Below, in pieces: positions 4,322 to 25,223 of a DNA stretch of 26,026 bases (positions are counted from its first letter, which is position 1; each line of letters starts with the position of its first letter). The notes beneath the pieces were generated by a model. That model was given only the letters and a program-made list of their open reading frames with translations, ran no database searches and was not told where the DNA came from. The stretch lies in IMG/VR virus record IMGVR_UViG_3300007537_000014, positions 1 through 26,026 of that record; one strand, given 5' to 3'. Origin of the DNA: a virus. The position numbers were made by a program, and so were the translations under genes.

Positions 4322-5938
4322 ATGCTTTTTGATTATAATAAATTACAGAAAGAACAAAAAAATCAAATTCTTGGTAAGTGGAAACCATTCCTTAAGGGAA
4401 TAAAAGATGGCCACTTAAGAGAAAATACGGCTATGTTGCTTGAGAACCAGTCACAGTACTTGTTAGAAGAGCCACAAACTCAAGCAGGAGACGTAGTTGG
4501 TATACAAAAGATATTGCTTCCTATAGTACGTAGGGTATTCCCTAACTTAGTAGCAAACAACTTAGTATCAGTTCAGCCGCTAGCCGGACCAACTGGTGTT
4601 ATATTCTATCTTAAATACCAATTCGCTTCAACTAAATCAGAGACTGCTGCTGGATCCGAATACAGCATGTACTCAGAAAATCCTAGTGATGCTAGCCAGG
4701 GTTATAATCCCTATTACTCTAGCGATGATGTTAGAGAGGTTACTGTGGCAGCTAATGATGGTGCTGGATCAGCATCTACCTTTGTTTTCGACACAGACAC
4801 AGACTGGGATGACGGACTTAAAGGTTCAGATTGGACTGATAGCACAAACCCATTACTTAAAAGAACTAGACTTAGGTTTAAGGCTTATGATGGTAGTGGT
4901 AACTCTTCTACATTCTTATTTAGGTATGACGGAAGAGCCGGAAAGAACGTATGGCAAATTAAAGAAACTGACAGAGCCGGAACTGGTATTGCATTATTTG
5001 GCGATGCTGCTAACGCAGTATTCGGTGCTCTTGATGCAGCAACAGCTGGTTATGATACTAACGAAGGTAGCCTCAGCTTAGCATCTGTTTCTTATACAAA
5101 TGCTTCAGATGAAATAACAGTCACTCCTACTAGTGCTGGAAGTACTCTTGGTACTGCACTTACTGTTGAAGGAGTAGAAGGTTTCTATACTTACAAACAA
5201 GAAGGAACTGAGAATATTCCTGATATGTCAATCTCTATCAGCCAGTATCCAATTACAGTTAAGAGCAGAAAGCTCAAAGCTACTTGGACAAATGAAGCTG
5301 AGCAAGACTTGAAGGCTTATCACGGCTTAAACGCTGATGCTGAGCTAACAGCTCTTGTATCAAATGAGATGATCGCTGAAATCGACAGGGAAATCGTTAG
5401 AACAGTTATGGACGCAGTTCCTATTAGTTCTTTCAGATATGTTGATTGGGGCGCTGACACAGACAACAACACCTCTGGTAACTATTTGGATAGACACAGA
5501 AACCTTACTCAGACTTTCGCAGAACTCAGTAATGAGATCTATAGAAAATCTAAGATTGGTCCTGCTAACTGGATAATTACATCACCTAAGATGGCTTCTT
5601 ACTTAGAGACTCTTGAAGGTTTCGTTGCCGCACCGGCAGCTACTCAAGGTGGTCTTGGTATCGTTAAAGCTGGTGATTTCCGTGGAAATTACACAGTATA
5701 CAAAGATCCATTGTTCCCACCAAATAAGGCTGTTATGGGTCACAAATCTCCTGCATCTCCTTTCGGAGCTGGAGTGGTTTATGCACCTTACGTAACTCAA
5801 GTAACACCTACCCTCTATGGTCCTAATGACTTTACACCTAGAAAGGGATTCCTAGCTAGGTACGGTCTTGTACAGGTTCCATTGGGTGATCTACTCTATG
5901 GTATGGTAAGTGTATCTGATTTACCAGGAAGTGAATAA
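4322..5938 (+). CDS. 23: Major capsid protein, T4 gp23-like, with insertion domain
   Basis: A 538-residue HK97-fold shell protein. Clear gp23 signatures are LPIVRRVFPNLVANNLVSVQPLAGPTG (positions 66-92, quoted in parts: LPIVRRVFP, VQPLAGPTG), then SRKLKATWTNEAEQDLKA, followed by HGLNADAELTALVS and EIDREIVR at about 315-360. The N-terminal 50 residues are a charged helix ending in YLLEEP, which fits the T4-type protease preference for Leu/Ile-X-Glu, so maturation cleavage near residue 49 or 50 is likely. Residues about 137-285 form a beta-rich insertion between the two conserved blocks, presumably surface exposed. The ribosome site is AGGAGG, 7 nt from ATG. A strong terminator follows, so this gene ends the head operon. 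Confidence 0.95.
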   Translation: MLFDYNKLQKEQKNQILGKWKPFLKGIKDGHLRENTAMLLENQSQYLLEEPQTQAGDVVGIQKILLPIVRRVFPNLVANNLVSVQPLAGPTGVIFYLKYQFASTKSETAAGSEYSMYSENPSDASQGYNPYYSSDDVREVTVAANDGAGSASTFVFDTDTDWDDGLKGSDWTDSTNPLLKRTRLRFKAYDGSGNSSTFLFRYDGRAGKNVWQIKETDRAGTGIALFGDAANAVFGALDAATAGYDTNEGSLSLASVSYTNASDEITVTPTSAGSTLGTALTVEGVEGFYTYKQEGTENIPDMSISISQYPITVKSRKLKATWTNEAEQDLKAYHGLNADAELTALVSNEMIAEIDREIVRTVMDAVPISSFRYVDWGADTDNNTSGNYLDRHRNLTQTFAELSNEIYRKSKIGPANWIITSPKMASYLETLEGFVAAPAATQGGLGIVKAGDFRGNYTVYKDPLFPPNKAVMGHKSPASPFGAGVVYAPYVTQVTPTLYGPNDFTPRKGFLARYGLVQVPLGDLLYGMVSVSDLPGSE

Positions 5939-6036: not shown

Positions 6037-6050
6037 AAAGATAAATATAT
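6037..6050 (+). promoter_or_regulatory. Candidate T4-late-like promoter motif at endonuclease start
   Basis: AAAGATAAATATAT resembles the T4 late -10 element TATAAATA and similar motifs at 6978, 7326, 11441 and 22374. Here it runs into the ATG of the endonuclease gene, so by T4 spacing the transcript would begin just inside the first ATG. Either transcription starts elsewhere or this motif is only AT-rich background. Confidence 0.3.
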
Positions 6051-6909
6051 GATAGATTATAAAAAGCCAAGAAAAAATAAGCAAAATAAAGTTTTTGATG
6101 TAGATAAACTTGAATGGTCAATCCAAGAATATCAACAACGAAAAGATAGGAAAGTAAAAGCTGTAATAATAGATAATAATCCACTAACAAAAAGAGATAA
6201 AGTAAAGTTTATATGTGAGCGTTGTAAAATTGAAGTAGAATTATTTTCAGATAAATTTGTAAAACGTAAAGGGGAAAAACTTTGTAGATCTTGTGCAATT
6301 TCTGTGTACCACGAGAGAAATCCTGATTGGCTCGAGCTATCTGAAGAACAAAAGAAAAATATATCAGAAAAAAATTCGGGCCCAAGAATTAAAGATGTAG
6401 AAACAAGAATTTGTCCTTCATGTGGAAAAAAATTTAAAGTAAGACTTACCGCACATAACATGACAAAGAAGTATTGCTCTAAAGAATGTAATATAAAAAA
6501 CTGGTCAGAACACGGTAAGGAAAATGGTGGGCAATATGGTTATCTCGGTTCAAAACCGTTTCATTATAAGAGTAAACCTGAAAGACAATTTAAATCCCTA
6601 TTAGAAGAATACAATATTAATTTTAAACATCAAAAATTTATTAAAATAAATAATAAAATGCACTCTTTTGATTTCTGGCTGCCTGATCATAATACTTTTA
6701 TAGAGGTAGATGGTGATTATTGGCATTATAATACTAATAATCCCAATGTAAATAAGAAGCCTCCAAACAAAAAACAAATCAATAGAATGGAATTAGACAA
6801 AGAGAAGAATGAATATTGTAAGAAGAATAATATTAAGCTTATAAGGATATGGGCTTCTGAATTAGAAGAAAGGGCAGAGCAAGTATTAGAGCAATTAGAT
6901 ATAGTATAA
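6049..6909 (+). CDS. Free-standing homing endonuclease-like protein, Vsr/PD-(D/E)XK type
   Basis: A 286-residue protein with two zinc-binding segments and a C-terminal nuclease domain. Cys pairs CERC (56/59) with CRSC (79/82), and CPSC (122/125) with YCSKEC (143/147), look like zinc knuckles for DNA binding. From residue 174, SKPERQFKSLLEE, FDFWLP (Asp208), IEVDGDYWH (Glu219, Asp221, His226) and a later LDKEKNEYC...IRIW pattern follow the Vsr-like/DUF559-like endonuclease layout seen in phage homing enzymes. The gene stands alone between two terminators, right after the capsid gene, the usual setting of an intronless homing gene cutting a conserved neighbour. No good ribosome site precedes the ATG at 6049. 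The protein has no other Met near the N-terminus, so that start is kept with doubt. Confidence 0.82.
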   Translation: MIDYKKPRKNKQNKVFDVDKLEWSIQEYQQRKDRKVKAVIIDNNPLTKRDKVKFICERCKIEVELFSDKFVKRKGEKLCRSCAISVYHERNPDWLELSEEQKKNISEKNSGPRIKDVETRICPSCGKKFKVRLTAHNMTKKYCSKECNIKNWSEHGKENGGQYGYLGSKPFHYKSKPERQFKSLLEEYNINFKHQKFIKINNKMHSFDFWLPDHNTFIEVDGDYWHYNTNNPNVNKKPPNKKQINRMELDKEKNEYCKKNNIKLIRIWASELEERAEQVLEQLDIV

Positions 6910-6943: not shown

Positions 6944-6977
6944 GTGAGTTAATATCAAGATAATAACCAAAGGAACA

Positions 6978-7281: not shown

Positions 7282-7325
7282 AAAAAGATCTTCATAAAAA
7301 ATAATCTGATATTAAAAATAGTAAC

Positions 7326-7338
7326 AAAGATAATATAT
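7326..7338 (+). promoter_or_regulatory. Candidate promoter of the structured RNA
   Basis: AAAGATAATATAT shares AAGATAAxTATA-like bases with motifs at 6037 and 11441. T4-style spacing would place transcription start near 7345, just upstream of the tRNA-like fold. No convincing -35 hexamer was seen. Confidence 0.35.
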
Positions 7339-7524
7339 GTAAAGAACAACTTATGAAGTAGATGCCTGGTAGCTTAATAGGTAAAGCAGTAACGTTTAAT
7401 GTTTCCTTTTGAGGGCGCCTGAGACTGGAAGTTAGTTACAGAAGACCGGATCATTCCCGGCCCCAGAGATAATCACTAATAAGCTTTAGTTCTTACATTA
7501 ATCCTTACGAATTATGGAGGCGCA

Positions 7525-7542
7525 ATGAAGTTCGTAATTTAA
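7525..7542 (+). other. Possible five-codon leader ORF inside hairpin loop
   Basis: GGAGG at 7516-7520 and ATG at 7525 (4-nt spacing) open a five-codon frame, MKFVI, ending in TAA at 7540-7542. The ribosome site and start codon lie in the loop of the 7505-7537 hairpin. It may be chance, but an SD plus start at good spacing inside an RNA that ends in a terminator resembles an attenuator leader peptide. Confidence 0.2.
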
Positions 7543-7612
7543 ACTTCCCACCATCGTTGATGGAACTGATTCTTTGAACGGGGGGTGATATTGGAAAGTA
7601 ATTTTTGGATAA

Positions 7613-7635
7613 GGGTGGCAATGCCACCCTTTTTT
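7613..7635 (+). terminator. Intrinsic terminator or attenuator before Cys-rich operon
   Basis: GGGTGGC at 7613-7619 pairs perfectly with GCCACCC at 7623-7629 around AAT, followed by six T. It ends only 16 nt before the ATG at 7652, and no promoter is visible in between. The Cys-rich genes downstream therefore need read-through, which fits an attenuator. Confidence 0.9.
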
Positions 7636-7651
7636 GTGCATAGTTGATTTT

Positions 7652-8056
7652 ATGGATGAGTATAAAAAGCTTTTAGACAAATGGCTATATGGGACAGAAG
7701 AGCCTGTTGCTACCGGTAAAATAGAAGATTTTCAAAAATTATTTAATATAATTAAAGAGTCACATCCTAGCTCGATTGGATCATTTAATACTACTAAATC
7801 TAAGGGTATAAAAAATAATGGAAATACCAAAGCATATCTAACAAAATTATTATTAGCGGAGTGTAATTGTACTAATTGTGTTTATAAAAACGATGAAAAA
7901 GTAAAAGATCATTGTGAAAAGTTTGCTGTTGGACCAGAAAAGAATATTTGCAAAGACTACTCAGAAAAACAAATTATAGGCGAATACGCTATAACAAAAC
8001 CAAATAACAGTATATATTACCTAAATTATTTAGATACAAAAAATGAATATTCATGA
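7652..8056 (+). CDS. Cys-rich unknown protein, 134 aa
   Basis: The frame is open further upstream to a TTG at 7634, but that lies in the T-run of the terminator, so the ATG at 7652 is chosen. No clear ribosome site precedes it. The product is not recognised. The N-terminal half is helical and polar. Residues about 73-110 carry a cluster of Cys and His (ECNCTNC, then DHC, then NICKDY), which suggests a metal-binding knuckle, probably zinc. The C-terminus has a beta-like tail. Its last 14 bases overlap the next Cys-rich gene, so the three small genes 7652-8454 look like one translationally coupled cassette. Expression would depend on read-through of the terminator immediately upstream. Confidence 0.6.
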   Translation: MDEYKKLLDKWLYGTEEPVATGKIEDFQKLFNIIKESHPSSIGSFNTTKSKGIKNNGNTKAYLTKLLLAECNCTNCVYKNDEKVKDHCEKFAVGPEKNICKDYSEKQIIGEYAITKPNNSIYYLNYLDTKNEYS

Positions 8057-8258
8057 TTATTGTAAGCACACTGATTGTCCAGTTCACCCCAAAAACCCAA
8101 ATAGTAAGAAAGAAGATAAATTTGTCTTACAATCTGAAGATTTATCCATTGAAATAGAAATATCCTTGCCATGTTTGATATGTAACCAATCTGAAAAAAT
8201 AAATATGAAAGACTTACTAAAAAGGGCTATATTAAAGAGAAAATTAAAAAATGAATAA
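8043..8258 (+). CDS. Mini zinc-knuckle-like protein, copy 1
   Basis: A 71-residue protein overlapping the gene before it by 14 nt and the gene after it by 8 nt. It has four spaced Cys: YCKHTDCP near the N-terminus (CX4C) and LPCLIC in the middle (CX2C), followed by KINMKDLLK and a basic C-terminal tail. The gene immediately downstream repeats this layout (YCEMEDCP, then ACLMC, then KIEMNKVLK), so the two are paralogues. A single bound zinc and a protein or nucleic-acid partner are plausible, but no function is recognised. The start codon lies inside the upstream gene, which favours coupled translation. Small size and clear paralogy make a real gene likely. Confidence 0.62.
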   Translation: MNIHDYCKHTDCPVHPKNPNSKKEDKFVLQSEDLSIEIEISLPCLICNQSEKINMKDLLKRAILKRKLKNE

Positions 8259-8454
8259 ATATTGTGAAATGGAAGATTGTCCAGCTAAAAGAAATGAAAT
8301 AGAAATGACATTTTATGCTATAGATAATTTAAAAGTCCCAGTTGCTTGCTTAATGTGTGTGCATTTTAATAAAATAGAAATGAATAAAGTATTAAAAAGC
8401 ATTAAGACTAAAAATAATTTAAGATCAAATAGTCGAGAATCTATTAGAATATAA
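8251..8454 (+). CDS. Mini zinc-knuckle-like protein, copy 2
   Basis: A 67-residue paralogue of the preceding gene. Shared order: Tyr-Cys, four residues, Cys-Pro; a beta-like stretch of about 30 residues; Cys-Leu-X-Cys; then Lys-Ile-X-Met and a helix with ValLeuLys or LeuLeuLys; and a basic tail. Spacing between the Cys pairs is shorter here than in copy 1. It overlaps copy 1 by 8 nt and is followed after 2 nt by the next gene, so it is inside a tight operon. Paralogy is seen in the sequence; zinc binding is inferred from the Cys pairs; the function is unknown. Confidence 0.62.
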   Translation: MNKYCEMEDCPAKRNEIEMTFYAIDNLKVPVACLMCVHFNKIEMNKVLKSIKTKNNLRSNSRESIRI

Positions 8455-17675: not shown

Positions 17676-20435
17676 ATGGCTCATGATATTTTAAGTCCTG
17701 GTGTTTCGGTTCAAGTTAAAGATAATACAACTTACCCTGCAACAGTACAAGGGACTGTAGCAGCAACAGCCGGGTTCGCTGAAAGAGGACCGGTTAACGA
17801 ACCGACATTAATACTTTCAAAACAAGATTATGCAGAAACTTTTGGTAAACCAATAGCTGATAACCCTTATATGGGTATGTTCGCAGATAAATTTTTAGAA
17901 GAATCCGTTGCATGGTTTACAAGAGTAGCAAAAGAAAAAGACTACGAAAAAGTTTGTAGTACGGTAGCTCCATCTTTGGATTTTGCGGGAGTTTCCTCTC
18001 CAGAATTCTGGATTAGGCTAGAGGATTTTCCGGTACCAAACAATGGAGTGTTCAAAGTTTCAATGACTGGCGGCTCAACCTTTACAGATTTACAAGCTTT
18101 AATTGATGATATGAATATGTCATTCGAATCTGTAACATTACCAGATGGCGAAACACTTTTAAGCAATTATATAACAGCAGAAGAGGATGAAGAAAACCCA
18201 GGAATGCTTTGTATAAAAAGTGATTATTATATAAATGTTCGTATAACAATATTATCATCTGAAGACACCTCGAATAATGTAGCAAAGACAAGTGGTGCTG
18301 GTAATATTGGAATAGCAGACGGCGCTTCTTCTGAAGACGTAGGAGCTATTTCAAGAGCATTTCATAGATTACCAGTTGGGTCAACCCAAGCAACTAATGC
18401 TAGTATAAATTCGTCTGCCCCTATAACACAAGAAAAATTAAATATGATTTCAGCTTATAATTTGATTAACTTAAAAATTGATGGTAGCTCAGCTGAACCA
18501 TTAAAAACTTATGAAGATGTCAATATTACACCAACAAGTGGAACACCAGCTGGATTTCCATTTTTAGTAGCGGATAATGGACCAGCAACTGACGCAGATC
18601 TTTCTACTTCAGATTTTGATATTAGCCTGTCAGGCTTTTATGATTTTTTAGCTAGTGATGCAACTGGAGATATAAATAATACTTTTACTATAACAGCAAG
18701 CGTAGATGGAACTGGCACTGAATTCACAGTAGATGACTTAGTAAGTGACTTGAATGCACAATTGACATCGATTACAACACCTGGCGGAACATTATTAGAT
18801 TACATACAGTTTGAAAAATTTGAGACTACAAAAATAAGATTAGTAAATGGTACAGCTGGTTTGGCAAATTTTGGTAGCCAAGTAAGTGTGGAAATAGCAA
18901 ATGGTACAACTGGAGATATCGTCAATTTAGGTTACACTGGAACAACAGTTACTGAGTCAGGAACAGATGCAACATGGTCTCTAGTTGATGTAGCAGAAAA
19001 AATCAATAATGCTATAGCAGAAGCACAAATATCGGCATCAAGCGATATTTTAACTATACAAAGCCAAACAGTTGGTGGAACAAGTTTTATTGAGATAAAT
19101 GAAGCAACTACAACAGAAGACTCCGCTCTTTCAACATTGAACTTTACAGATGGAGAAAATTCAGTTGGCTCGGTGGCAACTAATAATGGAGTTATTAATT
19201 TCGTAGCAAAAGATGCTGGTAGTTTTGGGAATAACATTAAAGTTAGAACATACACAACAACTAACCCAGTAACTGGCTCTGATATTTATAGCTTAGAAGT
19301 TTATGAAAACGATCAGAGTGTAGAGATCTATAATAATGTAAGCTGGTCAAATTCTTCATCGGATAACTTTATAAAGAAAATATTAGAAGAGTCTAATTAT
19401 ATTGCAGTAGATTTCGGCGCAACCGTTCAATACCCTAATACAGATACATCAATGCCACCAACAGCTCCTGCGCCAAATAACGCTGATATAGGAAACCCAG
19501 AATACTGGGAATTATCTGGTGGAAACGATGGAGTTCCAACAGACCAGAATGCTATGGACTCATTAATAGTTAACGCTCTTGATGAATATACAGACAGAGA
19601 ACAATTTATAATTGATGTAATTTTAGCACCTGGTTTTGTAGGTACACCCATTGTAAACAAATTGCAAAACCTCGGTGAATCTAGAAGGGATTTAGTGGCC
19701 CTAGTAGACCCTCCACCATTTTTAGATTGGAAAGAAATCATAGATTGGCATAACGGTAATTATAGCATGGGAGCCTCTAATTCTGTTTCATTGAGTTCAG
19801 CTTATACTATAGCAACATGGGGATGGCAAAAAGATTTTGATCCATATAATGAGAGTTATATCGATCTTCCGCCATCTATTTATGAAGCTGTTGCTTTAGC
19901 TAGAACACAAAATAATTATGAATTATGGGAAGCACCTGCCGGCTCGGCAAGAGGTATAGTTAATTCTATTAGCTCTTATACTAAGCCAAATCAAGCACAA
20001 AGAGAGTATCTATATAATGATGTAGATCCTGCCTGTATAAACCCTATAGTTCAATTCCCAAATAAGGGTACTTTGATTTATGGTCAAAAAACATGCTTAA
20101 GACAAACTAAGGCTATGAATAGAATAAACGTAGTAAGATTGGTAAATTCAATAAAACGTAATGTTGAAATTATTGGAGATAAATATATTTTCGAATTAAC
20201 TAATCCTACAACTTGGGGAAATATAGATAGAGAATTAAGGGCTTATCTTGGAAACATCCAAGAAAGAGGTGGCCTTGCTACGTTTGGAGTAGTATTTGAT
20301 GGATCTACAAATACCGGTCCTAGACAAGATCAGGGTATTATGTATGGTAAAATCTTTATACAACCAGTAAGAGTAGCAGAAAGAATATATATTGATTTAA
20401 CAATACAAAAAACTGGAGCTGAAGCTGCTGTATAG
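17676..20435 (+). CDS. 18: Tail sheath protein, T4 gp18-like, with large insertions
   Basis: A 919-residue sheath subunit; T4 gp18 is 659. N-terminal signature: LSPGVSVQVKDNT, then AATAGFAERGPVNEPTLI with FGKP. AKDAGSFGNNIKVRTY near 511-526 is the typical sheath motif, and the C-terminus holds GLATFGVVFDGST and RVAERIYIDLTIQKT. Residues about 105-500 are extra. Two related modules appear at about 125-192 and 337-408 (FTDLQALIDDMN/FTVDDLVSDLN and LPDGETLLSNYI/TPGGTLLDYIQF), plus a third piece at 437-490 like the 'IN' motif of flagellar hook proteins (DVAEKINNAIAE). The contractile sheath wraps the tube and drives ejection. AAGGAGG precedes the ATG, and a hairpin spans the stop codon. Confidence 0.93.
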   Translation: MAHDILSPGVSVQVKDNTTYPATVQGTVAATAGFAERGPVNEPTLILSKQDYAETFGKPIADNPYMGMFADKFLEESVAWFTRVAKEKDYEKVCSTVAPSLDFAGVSSPEFWIRLEDFPVPNNGVFKVSMTGGSTFTDLQALIDDMNMSFESVTLPDGETLLSNYITAEEDEENPGMLCIKSDYYINVRITILSSEDTSNNVAKTSGAGNIGIADGASSEDVGAISRAFHRLPVGSTQATNASINSSAPITQEKLNMISAYNLINLKIDGSSAEPLKTYEDVNITPTSGTPAGFPFLVADNGPATDADLSTSDFDISLSGFYDFLASDATGDINNTFTITASVDGTGTEFTVDDLVSDLNAQLTSITTPGGTLLDYIQFEKFETTKIRLVNGTAGLANFGSQVSVEIANGTTGDIVNLGYTGTTVTESGTDATWSLVDVAEKINNAIAEAQISASSDILTIQSQTVGGTSFIEINEATTTEDSALSTLNFTDGENSVGSVATNNGVINFVAKDAGSFGNNIKVRTYTTTNPVTGSDIYSLEVYENDQSVEIYNNVSWSNSSSDNFIKKILEESNYIAVDFGATVQYPNTDTSMPPTAPAPNNADIGNPEYWELSGGNDGVPTDQNAMDSLIVNALDEYTDREQFIIDVILAPGFVGTPIVNKLQNLGESRRDLVALVDPPPFLDWKEIIDWHNGNYSMGASNSVSLSSAYTIATWGWQKDFDPYNESYIDLPPSIYEAVALARTQNNYELWEAPAGSARGIVNSISSYTKPNQAQREYLYNDVDPACINPIVQFPNKGTLIYGQKTCLRQTKAMNRINVVRLVNSIKRNVEIIGDKYIFELTNPTTWGNIDRELRAYLGNIQERGGLATFGVVFDGSTNTGPRQDQGIMYGKIFIQPVRVAERIYIDLTIQKTGAEAAV

Positions 20436-21199: not shown

Positions 21200-22108
21200 A
21201 TGAGCCAAAACAAAAAAGATACAATAGAAATACCTGAACCTGTTAATAGGCCTAAAGAGGAGGAGAAACCAAGGGCGGAACATCCCCAATCTTCTCCTCA
21301 GCCTAGCAGTATAGGTAGACCAATTAAAAATAACAGTCCTTCTAAATCAAGGTTTGAGCCTGATCCTATTCCTGTGGAAATCCCATCAAAGGGTTTTCCT
21401 TATCGTGGTGTAATAAATGACGAAGAAGTTGCAAAAGGTATAATCAAACTTAAGCCTATGACATATAGGGAAGAGAAAATCTTAACTACAGATCGCCTAA
21501 TACAAGAAGGTAGAGCCCTTGATATGGTCCTTGAAAATTGTATTAAGTCAAACATAAATCCTTATGACTTATTATCTACAGATAGAATGTATTTATTATT
21601 TTATCTACGTGGTATGTCGTATGGTTTAAAATATGACTTCGATGTGAAATGCTATCACTGTGGTCATAATTTTGTACAAACGATAGAAATTGACAAACTT
21701 CCTGTTAAAATTTTTGAAGAAAAAGAAGACGCTGAGGAGCCAATTATTATTAAGCTTCCGTATTCCAAAGCCACATTAGAAGCTCACTTTATGAGAGGAG
21801 ACGAAGAAAGGCAAGCAACAGAAGATGCAATCGCCTCTAAATCTTTTAATGAACCGGATGATGTAGGGGCTACACTACTAAATACAGTTGACAATGTAAC
21901 ACTTGAAGATGGTGAAATATTGTCACCAAACGACAGGAAAGACTTTTTAAATAATCTCATTGGCGCAGATCTGGATCACTTTAGAACTGTAATAAATGAG
22001 TTATCACCTGGCATAAAGCAATTAAATAATATCTATTGCCCTAAATGTCGTGGAGAATTGGAGTTTAATGTCCCTCTGGGACGCAACTTTTTTCGTAGAT
22101 CTAAATAG
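21200..22108 (+). CDS. Baseplate hub assembly protein, T4_baseplate (gp26-like) family
   Basis: A 302-residue protein. A disordered Pro/Lys-rich N-terminus of about 55 residues leads to VEIPSKGFPY, GIIKLKPMTYREEKIL, NPYDLLSTDRMYLLFYLRGMSYG and a zinc knuckle CYHC (151/154), the pattern of the T4 baseplate hub-assembly family (PSKG.Y, 'lrpMt..dE', 'DR..LLl.lR..sYG', CxxC). A second knuckle CPKC (280/283) lies near the C-terminus. The protein ends FFRRSK, and an overlapping frame continues with a plausible family C-terminus, so expression of a longer fusion by +1 frameshift is possible (6-T run at 22088-22093). Role in hub assembly is from the family; no catalytic residues are claimed. Confidence 0.75.
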   Translation: MSQNKKDTIEIPEPVNRPKEEEKPRAEHPQSSPQPSSIGRPIKNNSPSKSRFEPDPIPVEIPSKGFPYRGVINDEEVAKGIIKLKPMTYREEKILTTDRLIQEGRALDMVLENCIKSNINPYDLLSTDRMYLLFYLRGMSYGLKYDFDVKCYHCGHNFVQTIEIDKLPVKIFEEKEDAEEPIIIKLPYSKATLEAHFMRGDEERQATEDAIASKSFNEPDDVGATLLNTVDNVTLEDGEILSPNDRKDFLNNLIGADLDHFRTVINELSPGIKQLNNIYCPKCRGELEFNVPLGRNFFRRSK

Positions 22109-22387: not shown

Positions 22388-23416
22388 ATGAAAATAATCT
22401 TATATTCTGATTTACACATCCACAATCATCATAGGCTTATGGTGAATTCCGAAACAGCTCTGGGTATAATTTCATATATAAAAGATTATGCCCAAGAGCA
22501 TAATATTAAAAAAATTATATGTGCTGGAGACTTTTTTCATACAAAATCAAAAGCATATGCACCTCACGTTATACAAAGTTGGTTAGAATTAAAAGAAATA
22601 AAAAAAGCTGGGCTTGAGCATTATATGCTAATTGGCAATCATGATATGGCTGTCCCCAATACAACTATGAATTCTATTTTATTTGTATTTAGCGATTATG
22701 CAAAAATAGTTCCTGATTATATTTTTTTTGACACAAAAAACACAAGATTTCATTTACTATCATACACAAATACATATTTTAATAATTTTCAAATTGATGA
22801 GAAGAAAAAAAATGTATTAGTAGGCCACCTTGACATAATAGGATTCCAGATGAGTAATGGGTTTCAAGCTATATCTGGTTTTAAAATGGATGATTTTGAA
22901 AAATTTGATTTAGTATTATCTGGTCACTACCATAAACATCAACAAAAGGATAATATAGTTTATATAGGTAGTCCATACCAAACTTCTTTCTCGGAAAGAC
23001 ACCAAAAAAAAGGTTTTATCGTACTTGACGATGAAACTTTGGATTGGGAATTTGTAGAATCTCCAGATGCACCAAAATATGAAATACTAGAAATAAATAA
23101 AATCACAGATTTACCAGAACATAAAATTCCTAATAATTTTCTGAAAATAAAACTAAAAAATAATTCTATTAGTAAAACTAAATTAAGGAATAAACTTACC
23201 GAACTTGGCGCAATTAGTGTTGATATAGTTGCACCAGAAGATGCAAGAGAAATTGAAAAGTACTATGAAAACGAACTTAGTAATGATCCCGCGGAACTTG
23301 CTAGGTCTTACATAAATAGTTTATCAGATTTAAATGGATATGATAAAAGAAAGTTAGTAAAGTATTTTAATAAAATTCAAGAAGTGGCGGATAATATAAC
23401 AGAATATGAACTTTAA
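22388..23416 (+). CDS. 47: Recombination nuclease subunit, T4 gp47/SbcD-like
   Basis: A 342-residue metallophosphoesterase. Motifs run in Mre11/SbcD order: YSDLHIH (Asp8, His10), AGDFFH (Asp48), GNHDM (Asn84, His85, Asp86), VGHLD (His147) and SGHYHKH (His180, His182), then a C-terminal cap domain. T4 gp47 is 339 residues. Partner of gp46; in T4 the pair resects DNA ends for recombination-dependent replication and host-DNA breakdown. It overlaps the next gene by 11 nt. No ribosome site is visible before its ATG; a late-like motif abuts it. Compared with the metallophosphoesterase at 9731, this one has the longer nuclease layout. Confidence 0.93.
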   Translation: MKIILYSDLHIHNHHRLMVNSETALGIISYIKDYAQEHNIKKIICAGDFFHTKSKAYAPHVIQSWLELKEIKKAGLEHYMLIGNHDMAVPNTTMNSILFVFSDYAKIVPDYIFFDTKNTRFHLLSYTNTYFNNFQIDEKKKNVLVGHLDIIGFQMSNGFQAISGFKMDDFEKFDLVLSGHYHKHQQKDNIVYIGSPYQTSFSERHQKKGFIVLDDETLDWEFVESPDAPKYEILEINKITDLPEHKIPNNFLKIKLKNNSISKTKLRNKLTELGAISVDIVAPEDAREIEKYYENELSNDPAELARSYINSLSDLNGYDKRKLVKYFNKIQEVADNITEYEL

Positions 23417-25223
23417 TAGCGTAAAATTTAAGAACTTTATGAGCTATGGTGATGAGCTACAAAAATTAGAATTATCATCTACAGGGATAAGACTTGTTAC
23501 TGGTACAAACGACAAAGACGGTGGCAGCAATGGATCGGGAAAGAGCACGGCAGTTGTTGACGCTATATGTTACGGTTTGTTTGGTAAAACAACAAAAAAG
23601 CTTAAAGCAGATAGTGTAGTAAATTATAACACCGGCAAAAATTGTTATGTTGAAGTTAATTTTAATGTTGGTCAAAATAATTGTAAAGTAAAAAGATATA
23701 GAAAAGATGACGAGTATAATAATTCATTAATATTTGAAGTAAATGGTAAAGATTTATCGGGTGAAGGTAAAACAGAAACACAGGACAATATAGAAGCAAC
23801 TATTGGAATTAGTTTCAAGTCGTTTATATCAGGCATAGTTTTAAGTCAAGAAAAAGTATCTAATTTTGCAGATGCAGACCCTTTAGAACGCAGAAAAATA
23901 ATAGAAAATTTATTAATGTATGATTTTATTAGTAAATATCATAAAGCTAGTAAAGAGATTTTAAGGGTTATAACCCCTGAATTAAAATCGTTATCCTCTA
24001 GTATAAAAGATAAAAAAGAAACTATTAATACTTTAACAGAGAACTTGTTAGATTATATAAATAAAAAAGAAGAAAAAGAGAAGTCTAAATCGGAGCATAT
24101 AAAGAAACTAGAAGCTGAAAAAAACAAACTTGAACAATTAGACATAAACAGTGAAATTGAAAATAGAAATAAATATAAACAACTAATTAACGAGACAAAT
24201 ATACTTAAAGAACAATATGATGAAATAGAAAGCCGTATCTCCGAAGAAGAAAAACTTATAAAAGCTTTAACTCCTAAAATTACAGTTAGAAAAAAAGAGA
24301 TAGAGACCACTAAAAATAATCCCAATATATGTCCAGTGTGTTCAAATATTATAGATAAAGAAAAATTAGATCAATATATATCTAATAAAAAGACAGAAGT
24401 TAAGGAGCTAAATACAGAAATAAATAAACATTCAGAGGCCAAAGCAGCTGCTGAAGAAAATATAAAGCTAATTAAAGCGGATTTAATGTCTAAAGAAAAG
24501 TCAATAGCAAGATTGAAAGCTAAGATTAGCAATGAACTTAATGATAATGAAATAGAACATTCTCTAGAGAAAATAAATGACATAAAAATGCAAATAAAAT
24601 ACCTAGAGAGCGACAAATTGGATTTAGAGAATGATGAATGGATAAGTAACACTTCGAATAACATAGAACAGCATAAGAAAAAATTAAAAAAAATAAAAAG
24701 TAAATTAAGAAAATTAGAAGAAGAGGCAAATTATTATGATTGGTGGAAAATAGCCCTAGGAAATTCACCTAATTCCATAAAATCTTTTGCGATCAATCAA
24801 GTATTAACTTCATTTAATAAATATATAAATTATTATTTAGGGTTTTTTGGCTATGATTTAACATACTCTTTAAACGACCAGCTGGAAGAGACTATTATAA
24901 AAGATGAATATGAGACTAGCTTTGGATCCTTTTCTGGCGGAGAAAAAAGGGCTTTAGAGATAAGCCTTGTTTTTGCTTTATATGAAATAATAAGATTAAA
25001 ATTACCAGACAGTGTAAATATTCTTGTATTAGATGAATTATTGTCTACAAGCCTTGATGACGTAAGAATTAATAGTTCTATTGAAATTCTAAAAGAATTA
25101 GAAGAACGGGGTTTATCGATCTTCGTTATAGATCATAAATCATCCCTAAAGGATAATTTAGATTGTAGGGCAATTTCGATACGAAAGGATGAAGATGGAA
25201 CATCAAGACTGGAAACAGACTGA
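23406..25223 (+). CDS. 46: Recombination ATPase subunit, T4 gp46/SbcC-like
   Basis: A 605-residue SMC/Rad50-type ATPase. Walker A GSNGSGKST at 40-48, Q-loop LSQEK near 146-150, two long coiled-coil arms flanking a zinc hook CPVC (309-312), signature FSGGEKRA from 509, Walker B NILVLDEL (Asp543, Glu544), and H-loop IDHKS (His577). T4 gp46 is 560 residues, so size fits. It binds DNA ends and uses ATP to control the gp47 nuclease. It starts inside the gp47 gene (11-nt overlap), so the two are co-translated in fixed ratio. Confidence 0.95.
   Translation: MNFNSVKFKNFMSYGDELQKLELSSTGIRLVTGTNDKDGGSNGSGKSTAVVDAICYGLFGKTTKKLKADSVVNYNTGKNCYVEVNFNVGQNNCKVKRYRKDDEYNNSLIFEVNGKDLSGEGKTETQDNIEATIGISFKSFISGIVLSQEKVSNFADADPLERRKIIENLLMYDFISKYHKASKEILRVITPELKSLSSSIKDKKETINTLTENLLDYINKKEEKEKSKSEHIKKLEAEKNKLEQLDINSEIENRNKYKQLINETNILKEQYDEIESRISEEEKLIKALTPKITVRKKEIETTKNNPNICPVCSNIIDKEKLDQYISNKKTEVKELNTEINKHSEAKAAAEENIKLIKADLMSKEKSIARLKAKISNELNDNEIEHSLEKINDIKMQIKYLESDKLDLENDEWISNTSNNIEQHKKKLKKIKSKLRKLEEEANYYDWWKIALGNSPNSIKSFAINQVLTSFNKYINYYLGFFGYDLTYSLNDQLEETIIKDEYETSFGSFSGGEKRALEISLVFALYEIIRLKLPDSVNILVLDELLSTSLDDVRINSSIEILKELEERGLSIFVIDHKSSLKDNLDCRAISIRKDEDGTSRLETD

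Follow-up and report, generated by a model that had tools for sequence, protein, structure and literature searches.

A tRNA-like structured RNA, very probably trans-acting, in a clade of T4-like bacteriophages from metagenomes

The stretch of DNA analyzed here (the window; 26,026 nt of the IMG/VR virus record IMGVR_UViG_3300007537_000014) is a fragment of about 26 kb from a T4-like myophage, and its plus strand holds, at positions 7327-7635, a predicted free-standing, structured RNA, some 300 nt long, with a tRNA-like domain. The same fold is written with different letters in three related viruses and, therefore, the structured-RNA family is real; it is apparently undescribed, and its tRNA-like domain is well supported. 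As judged from the sequence and its surroundings, this RNA very probably acts in trans. With respect to its role, the best overall explanation, to which we give an even chance, would be a late RNA that docks on the 30S subunit and whose tRNA-like domain engages a partner. A first-pass annotation, made from the letters of the window, had proposed either a stand-alone phage RNA imitating tRNA or an attenuator-type leader; the first of these is borne out by homologs, covariation, a promoter motif, a terminator and changing neighbors. Few functional non-coding RNAs of phages are available, and tRNA mimics lacking CCA other than YrlA, tmRNA and the tails of plant viruses are rarer still. The family would add a second lineage of RNAs built from a stem plus a tRNA-like module, which bears on the purpose of such modules.

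The window encodes the portal (94-1068), the major head protein (4322-5938), the tail sheath (17676-20435), the baseplate hub (21200-22108) and SbcCD-like genes (22388-25223), and the RNA is located in the late structural region. The head protein was about 30-33% identical to the best isolate matches listed, which were mainly from cyanophages. A gene-free stretch had been reported at this place, and indeed no plausible gene was found in 7282-7633; the other long gaps in the window correspond to minus-strand or unlisted genes. The element gave a coding signal on neither strand, and an antisense ORF (7498-7680), with 14 non-synonymous vs. 6 synonymous codon changes, was discarded as a coding candidate. 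ARAGORN identified no tRNA in the window, a search of the window against Rfam gave no match at gathering level and none convincing up to E = 10, and no phage with similar DNA was found in INPHARED. It must be noted that simple folding energy was ordinary (z = −0.69), so that energy by itself would have missed the element.

A head-protein search provided 15 related IMG/VR contigs. One of them, L005, carries the element with 75.5% nucleotide identity over 392 nt (E = 4e-62), while the protein adjoining it is only 52% identical in amino acids between the two; a 46-nt block shows a single difference between the window and L005, though their genomes differ elsewhere. A profile built from this pair recovered a sequence common to L002 and L003 (E = 1.5e-14) and a further member in L009 (E = 2e-5), and the covariance model of the cloverleaf, R1, scored 148 bits in L005, 50 bits in L002 and 31 bits in L009. 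The family as found thus comprises four distinct sequences, all in metagenomic contigs of one clade. No copy of the element was detected in L004, L010, L011, L013, and L014 within the part sampled, which is the same genome region, and, therefore, it is accessory. Neither in IMG/VR nor in 85k bacterial genomes did pattern searches reveal any further member. The 17 matches in bacterial genomes were unconvincing under model R1, the best of them (13.7 bits) being a tRNA called by ARAGORN, and a looser pattern combining the D- and T-arms brought up nothing in IMG/VR beyond tRNAs, chance matches and the members already known. The pattern matches L017-L029 (GGAGGCGCNATG; TTTCCNTTTGAGGGCGCC) proved not to be homologs, as they correspond to ordinary start regions or to the motif FPFEGA of the portal protein, and the matches of a second covariance model (R2) in L107 and L095 comprised a tRNA, the region at the start of RtcB and an odd tRNA-like element.

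The tRNA-like domain (7365-7467, plus strand) is supported by covariance-model matches and covariation. It consists of an acceptor-like stem (7365-7369/7463-7467), U8-A9 (7370-7371), a D-arm of tRNA consensus, GCTT-AATAGGTA-AAGC (7372-7387), an extended arm at the anticodon position (7389-7439) and a T-arm (7444-7462) that includes the hairpin CCGG-ATCATTC-CCGG at 7446-7460. The perfect D-arm, the elongated arm and the T-arm hairpin had all been recognized in the first-pass annotation, and they hold, with U8, A9, A14, G18G19 and A21 in place. In contrast, the acceptor stem had been considered failed, which was wrong: CTGG/CCAG (7366-7369/7463-7466) pairs, covaries and runs on into a longer closing stem, P1. 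This acceptor-like stem is present in all four members, slightly displaced in L009, and is replaced by ACAGG/CCTGT in L005 and by CTTCgAGG/CCTaGAAG in L002. The D-stem GCTT/AAG(C/T), the UA at positions 8-9 and A14, G18, G19 and A21 of the D-loop are kept in the four members, as is the single nucleotide between the D-arm and the following stem. The latter, of 5 bp (GTAAC/GTTAC; 7389-7393/7435-7439), is fully paired in every member, its counterparts being ATGAC/GTCAT, AAAGC/GCTTT and GCGAC/GTCGC, and the variable loop has 4 nt, (A/T)GAA, throughout. The T-stem changes from CCGG to CTGG/CCAG and TAGG/CCTG around an invariant T-loop, ATCATT(C/T), which keeps U55 and C56 opposite G18 and G19 of the D-loop, as the elbow bases of a tRNA, and has A54 and U58 in place of T54 and A58.

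Compared with tRNA (RF00005), the D-arm with its 4-bp stem, G18G19 and the 1-nt and 2-nt spacers agree in the four members; the 7-bp acceptor with a 3′ end to which CCA can be added is replaced by a stem of 4-5 bp that leads into P1, and a 7-nt anticodon loop with U33 occurs in no member. This absence of a CCA end, together with the silence of ARAGORN and Rfam, agrees with the earlier opinion that the element is not an ordinary tRNA. The D-arm 19-mer GGTAGCTTANTAGGTAAAG was also detected in six IMG/VR contigs outside the family, and five of these sites are genuine tRNA D-arms. Since, in addition, the cloverleaf covariance model recovers genuine tRNA genes, the domain can be regarded as objectively tRNA-like.

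The arm at the anticodon position is extended in all members by an inner stem (GTTTCC/GGAAGT in the window; 7401-7406/7427-7432) and a loop of 18-20 nt, which in the window is about 20 nt long and contains the palindrome GGCGCC (7414-7419). This palindrome is shared by three members and is GAGCTC in L009. The RNA could thus be a dimeric or oligomeric scaffold joined through this loop, like the kissing loops of GOLLD and ROOL, with which it shares being phage-borne and structured and a possible loop-loop self-interaction. The loop is self-complementary in all four members (p = 0.086, 0.006, 0.000, and 0.000 for the self-duplex), but it was chosen after inspection and the window by itself is weak. 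Moreover, with about 300 nt instead of the more than 500 nt expected for that class, and no Rfam match, the RNA is far smaller than GOLLD and ROOL (600-800 nt or more), which have another fold; we consider a scaffold improbable. GOLLD has been reported to bind ribosomes in pull-downs (PMC12286853). An intramolecular kissing interaction of GCGCCT (7415-7420) with AGGCGC in the loop of the GGAGG hairpin of the 3′ half was also considered; it is perfect in the window and L005, is lost in L002 and has only the alternative GAGCTC/GAGCTT in L009, and for this reason it is not claimed.

Covarying pairs among homologs, proposed in the first-pass annotation as a check, were found. Given that MAFFT alignments of the four members misplaced the D-arm of L002, the covariance-model alignment (A8) was used, in which 90% of the cells are paired. 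Both partners changed in 12 of the 26 pairs, against 5.5 ± 1.4 in shuffles, in an alignment that was fitted to the structure; in the same structure-fitted alignment the covariation score was 0.59, against 0.27 in shuffles (0 of 500 reached it) and never above 0.15 with the partner strand slid. In a strand-swap test, each member paired far better with its own 3′ strands than with those of other members: all helices together scored 196 vs. 142 ± 8.5 after swapping (0 of 20,000 as high), with the helices outside the fixed tRNA geometry having been picked by eye, and the fixed-offset helices of the cloverleaf by themselves scored 73 vs. 58.8 (3 of 20,000 as high). Unconstrained minimum-free-energy (MFE) folding recovered the entire 5′ domain in L005 and most of it in the window, but the folds of L002 and L009 lack the cloverleaf, a genuine weak point of the evidence from energy. 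A tRNA, tmRNA or protein gene decaying by neutral drift would account for the missing CCA, the incomplete acceptor stem and the patchy distribution; this reading is refuted by the covariation, and the invariant motifs of the D- and T-loops, the nearly unchanged 46-nt block and the mostly non-synonymous changes in the only antisense ORF also go against it, so that its probability is practically negligible.

The domain is closed by P1, whose 5′ strand (GTAA a GAAC .. CTTAT .. AGT. GAT; 7339-7363) pairs with 7472-7496 in the MFE fold of the window. Its counterparts are CTTACAAGA/TCTTGTAAG and AAGGAAC/GTTTCTT in L005, AATGAAC/GTTCATT in L002 and AGAATTA/TAATTCT in L009, and pairing was 0.94 for the own strands vs. 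0.60 for swapped ones. This layout recalls the bacterial Y RNA YrlA, whose 5′ and 3′ ends form a large stem joined to a tRNA-like module (PMC8394870): in both, the module capping the basal stem has D-, T- and acceptor-like arms and lacks CCA. The earlier statement that no family was known with this arrangement stands for Rfam 15, but not for the 5′ domain taken separately. The phage RNA differs from YrlA in the elongated anticodon-position arm with its palindromic loop, the T-loop AUCAUUY, an extra 3′ half with two Shine-Dalgarno (SD)-like sites, its phage location and the lack of an Rfam match. The Ro60-binding motif in the stem of Y RNAs, which we take to be GNCGAAN0-1G, was sought as GNCGAA and appears in none of the four members. 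Given this and the absence of any convincing Rfam match up to E = 10, the RNA was not filed as YrlA.

By analogy, the phage RNA may nevertheless work like a Y RNA, that is, as a tether of YrlA type whose basal stem connects a tRNA-binding enzyme (PNPase) with a second partner. Besides the common two-part layout, RtcB RNA ligase is encoded by one RNA-bearing phage, G008, which may be compared with the rsr-yrlBA-rtcBA operons (PMC7790460). However, no gene for Rsr (TROVE/Ro60, PF05731), the protein with which YrlA associates, was detected in 13 phage records, which are fragments of phage genomes, and both the 3′ half with its terminator and the two 16S-complementary sites are left unexplained, so that a tether of this kind appears quite unlikely.

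Another possibility is that the RNA acts as a tRNA decoy, which would bait or competitively inhibit a tRNA-cutting defense or a tRNA-directed toxin, with the SD-like sites serving its stability or localization. The tRNA-like geometry lacking CCA and anticodon would suit this role, the 181 kb of fetched records of RNA-bearing phages contain no tRNA genes, G008 encodes RtcB, and a decoy role has also been suggested for YrlA (PMC7790460). Nevertheless, about 35-50 nt stand in place of the anticodon loop, the part that anticodon nucleases recognize, and two strongly conserved sites complementary to the anti-SD are left without explanation. In this regard, RtcB was found in just one RNA-bearing record (that of L009, at L095:3136-4413) and also in that of a relative in which the RNA was not found (L085). 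Both the decoy and the Y RNA ideas gain a little from RtcB and the lack of tRNA genes, and the decoy is rather unlikely on the whole.

The RNA appears to be a transcription unit of its own. Directly upstream of it, the promoter-like motif AAGATAATA (7327-7335, plus strand), already noticed in the first-pass annotation, occurs 10 times in the window vs. 1.7 expected, and its core AAGATAA lies just before P1, at the same place, in the four members. In the non-coding DNA of 14 loci of the clade, AAGATAA was found 45 times on the plus strand vs. 10 on the minus strand, with a density about 6-fold higher than in coding DNA, and motifs of this type are among the most enriched 9-mers of the clade's non-coding DNA. 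They are probably a late-type promoter element of the clade, with a suggested likeness to T4-type late promoters. Sites AAGATAA(T/A) are located at 6957, 7327, and 11442 of the window, and others in clade loci. At the other end, the strong intrinsic terminator that had been described was recovered at 7611-7636 of the plus strand (stem 7611-7631 plus a U run). It is kept as a plain terminator in all members and its stem covaries, with GGGTGGC/GCCACCC changing to GGGCAGC/GCTGCCC. These signals point to a stand-alone transcript of about 295 nt.

The neighborhood of the RNA varies. The genes flanking it change on both sides between lineages; the one downstream differs in every lineage, with the pair of the window and L005 as a partial exception, and no homology was found for it among the window, L002, and L009. 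Changing neighbors, a clade-wide promoter motif and its own terminator argue for a trans-acting gene and not for an attenuator. The first-pass annotation had offered the latter as a leader controlling the Cys-rich genes downstream; in this reading, the mini-ORF would be the sensor. Although the terminator stands directly ahead of gene 7652 and the mini-ORF is conserved in the window and L005, the mini-ORF is absent in L002, the Cys-rich genes are not conserved beside the RNA, and neither a conserved downstream gene nor an alternative antiterminator, as in attenuators or T-boxes, is evident. This reading is already largely refuted and highly improbable. The Cys-rich genes themselves (7652-8454) encode small proteins with paired CxxC-type motifs, gave no matches in Pfam, PHROG or NCBIfam and occupy a hypervariable region between head genes on one side and tail genes on the other. 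Upstream of the RNA, the window has a homing-endonuclease-like gene (6049-6909) of which L005 keeps only the last 24 codons (L005:12049-12130; 96% identical), placed behind a new ATG and a promoter motif; this remnant is a trace of loss or gain of the endonuclease gene. In L005, a group I intron (L005:10207-10478; RF00028, 84 bits) splits the gene for the major head protein; the copy in the window is uninterrupted, and the same library gave no match to this family in the window.

The 3′ half of the RNA carries two SD-like sites. Site 1 (GGAGG, 7516-7520) is displayed in the loop of the hairpin TTACGAA/TTCGTAA (7505-7537), as had been described. This hairpin is identical in L005, and its stem is fully replaced by AATTTT/AAAATT around the loop AAGGGAGGCC in L002 and by GTCAT/ATGAC around AGGGAGGTGA in L009, with GGAGG in the loop of all four members. 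It is followed by a small hairpin, CCATC-GTT-GATGG (7551-7563), weakly predicted by folding energy, which becomes CCGTC-GTT-GACGG in L005 and GTCC-GTT-GGAC in L002. Site 2, GGGGGGTGA (7580-7588), is probably in a single-stranded stretch; its counterparts are GGGAGGTGA in L005, AGGAGGTGA in L002 and AAAGGAGGC in L009. The form GG(A/G)GGTGA is common to all members but L009, which has AAAGGAGG instead. Duplexes were computed with a generic anti-SD sequence, from which the 16S tail of the host may differ; on this basis, sites 1 and 2 of the window reached −9.3 and −16.3 kcal/mol, and in the four members the best site ranged from −16.0 to −16.4 and the second from −9.3 to −10.9 kcal/mol. The sum of the best two sites was matched by 2, 0, 0, and 0 of 200 shuffles each. 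The ribosome-binding sites of the window's genes had a median of −6.1 kcal/mol, the strongest being −11.4, and at most two plus-strand sites per RNA-bearing locus were at or below −14. As the stronger site of L009 is site 1, what the members retain is a pair of sites rather than any fixed sequence.

Neither site is followed by a conserved start codon. The five-codon ORF previously noted is present in the window (ATG AAG TTC GTA ATT TAA, MKFVI; 7525-7542), but it is common only to L005. L002 has no ATG after GGAGG and, therefore, conservation extends to the hairpin but not to the peptide, so that a conserved leader ORF was rejected. The sites could also serve short unconserved ORFs, such as this one or that starting with GTG in L009. 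The simplest reading of the 3′ half would be direct binding of this RNA to the 16S tail. A sponge that titrates the translational repressor CsrA/RsmA through GGA motifs in loops was also weighed, as CsrB/RsmZ-type RNAs likewise display G-rich motifs in hairpin loops and A-N-GGA is present in the site 1 loop of all members. However, only this ANGGA loop is kept out of the several that such sponges conserve, and site 2 of the window, GGGGGG, has lost GGA through an A-to-G change that preserves anti-SD pairing by wobble. Conservation also reaches GGAGGTGA, beyond the CsrA core, with GGAGG(TGA) matched to the anti-SD; two sites are few, the tRNA-like domain would remain unexplained and CsrA may be absent from the host. 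A sponge is thus very improbable.

The idea of ribosome binding gains support from the two conserved sites complementary to the anti-SD. The RNA would be made late in infection and would dock on 30S subunits by SD:anti-SD pairing at two sites, one of them predicted to exceed in strength every ribosome-binding site of the window. Held there, the tRNA-like domain would occupy a tRNA site or recruit a tRNA-binding host protein, much as YrlA tethers PNPase, and translation or the fate of the ribosome would be biased in favor of the phage. Ribosome docking as the function is put forward tentatively, at somewhat less than an even chance. The version in which RNA does everything, with the two anti-anti-Shine-Dalgarno sites tethering a tRNA mimic to the 30S subunit and steering initiation or tRNA traffic, is possible and a little less probable still. 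If true, a phage would steer these processes by RNA alone, and the family provides a case in which the targeting of the ribosome by a phage through RNA, in place of protein, can be put to the test.

Among known RNAs of similar size, tmRNA (RF00023) also has about 300 nt and combines a tRNA-like part with a region that meets the ribosome. In tmRNA, however, the tRNA-like part is formed by the two ends, whereas in the phage RNA it is one 110-nt stretch with a true D-stem, no CCA and no conserved tag ORF, accompanied by SD-like sites that tmRNA lacks. No tmRNA match was obtained in the window with the same tools that find the tmRNA of the relative G020. The stable RNAs C and D of T4 are small non-tRNA RNAs of T4-like phages, and they have no known function; the RNA described here differs in being placed in the late structural region, whereas RNAs C and D lie in the tRNA cluster.

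A tmRNA of its own (L106:12368-12720; tag AENFDADFALAA), which scores 128 bits with Rfam, is encoded by a related phage in the 144-kb record of L085. At least 13 tRNAs accompany it, and the tRNA-like RNA described here was not found in this record. Another IMG/VR phage contig carries a tmRNA gene (L033:3101-3400; tag VKPKLRTDNPLLERAAA) and several tRNAs. Finally, the odd tRNA-like element at L107:1549-1648, in the relative that encodes the tmRNA at L106, called by neither ARAGORN nor Rfam, has a perfect 7-bp acceptor (GCCGTGT/ACACGGC), a canonical T-arm and an elongated arm at the anticodon position, and is possibly an analog of, or a step toward, the four-member family.
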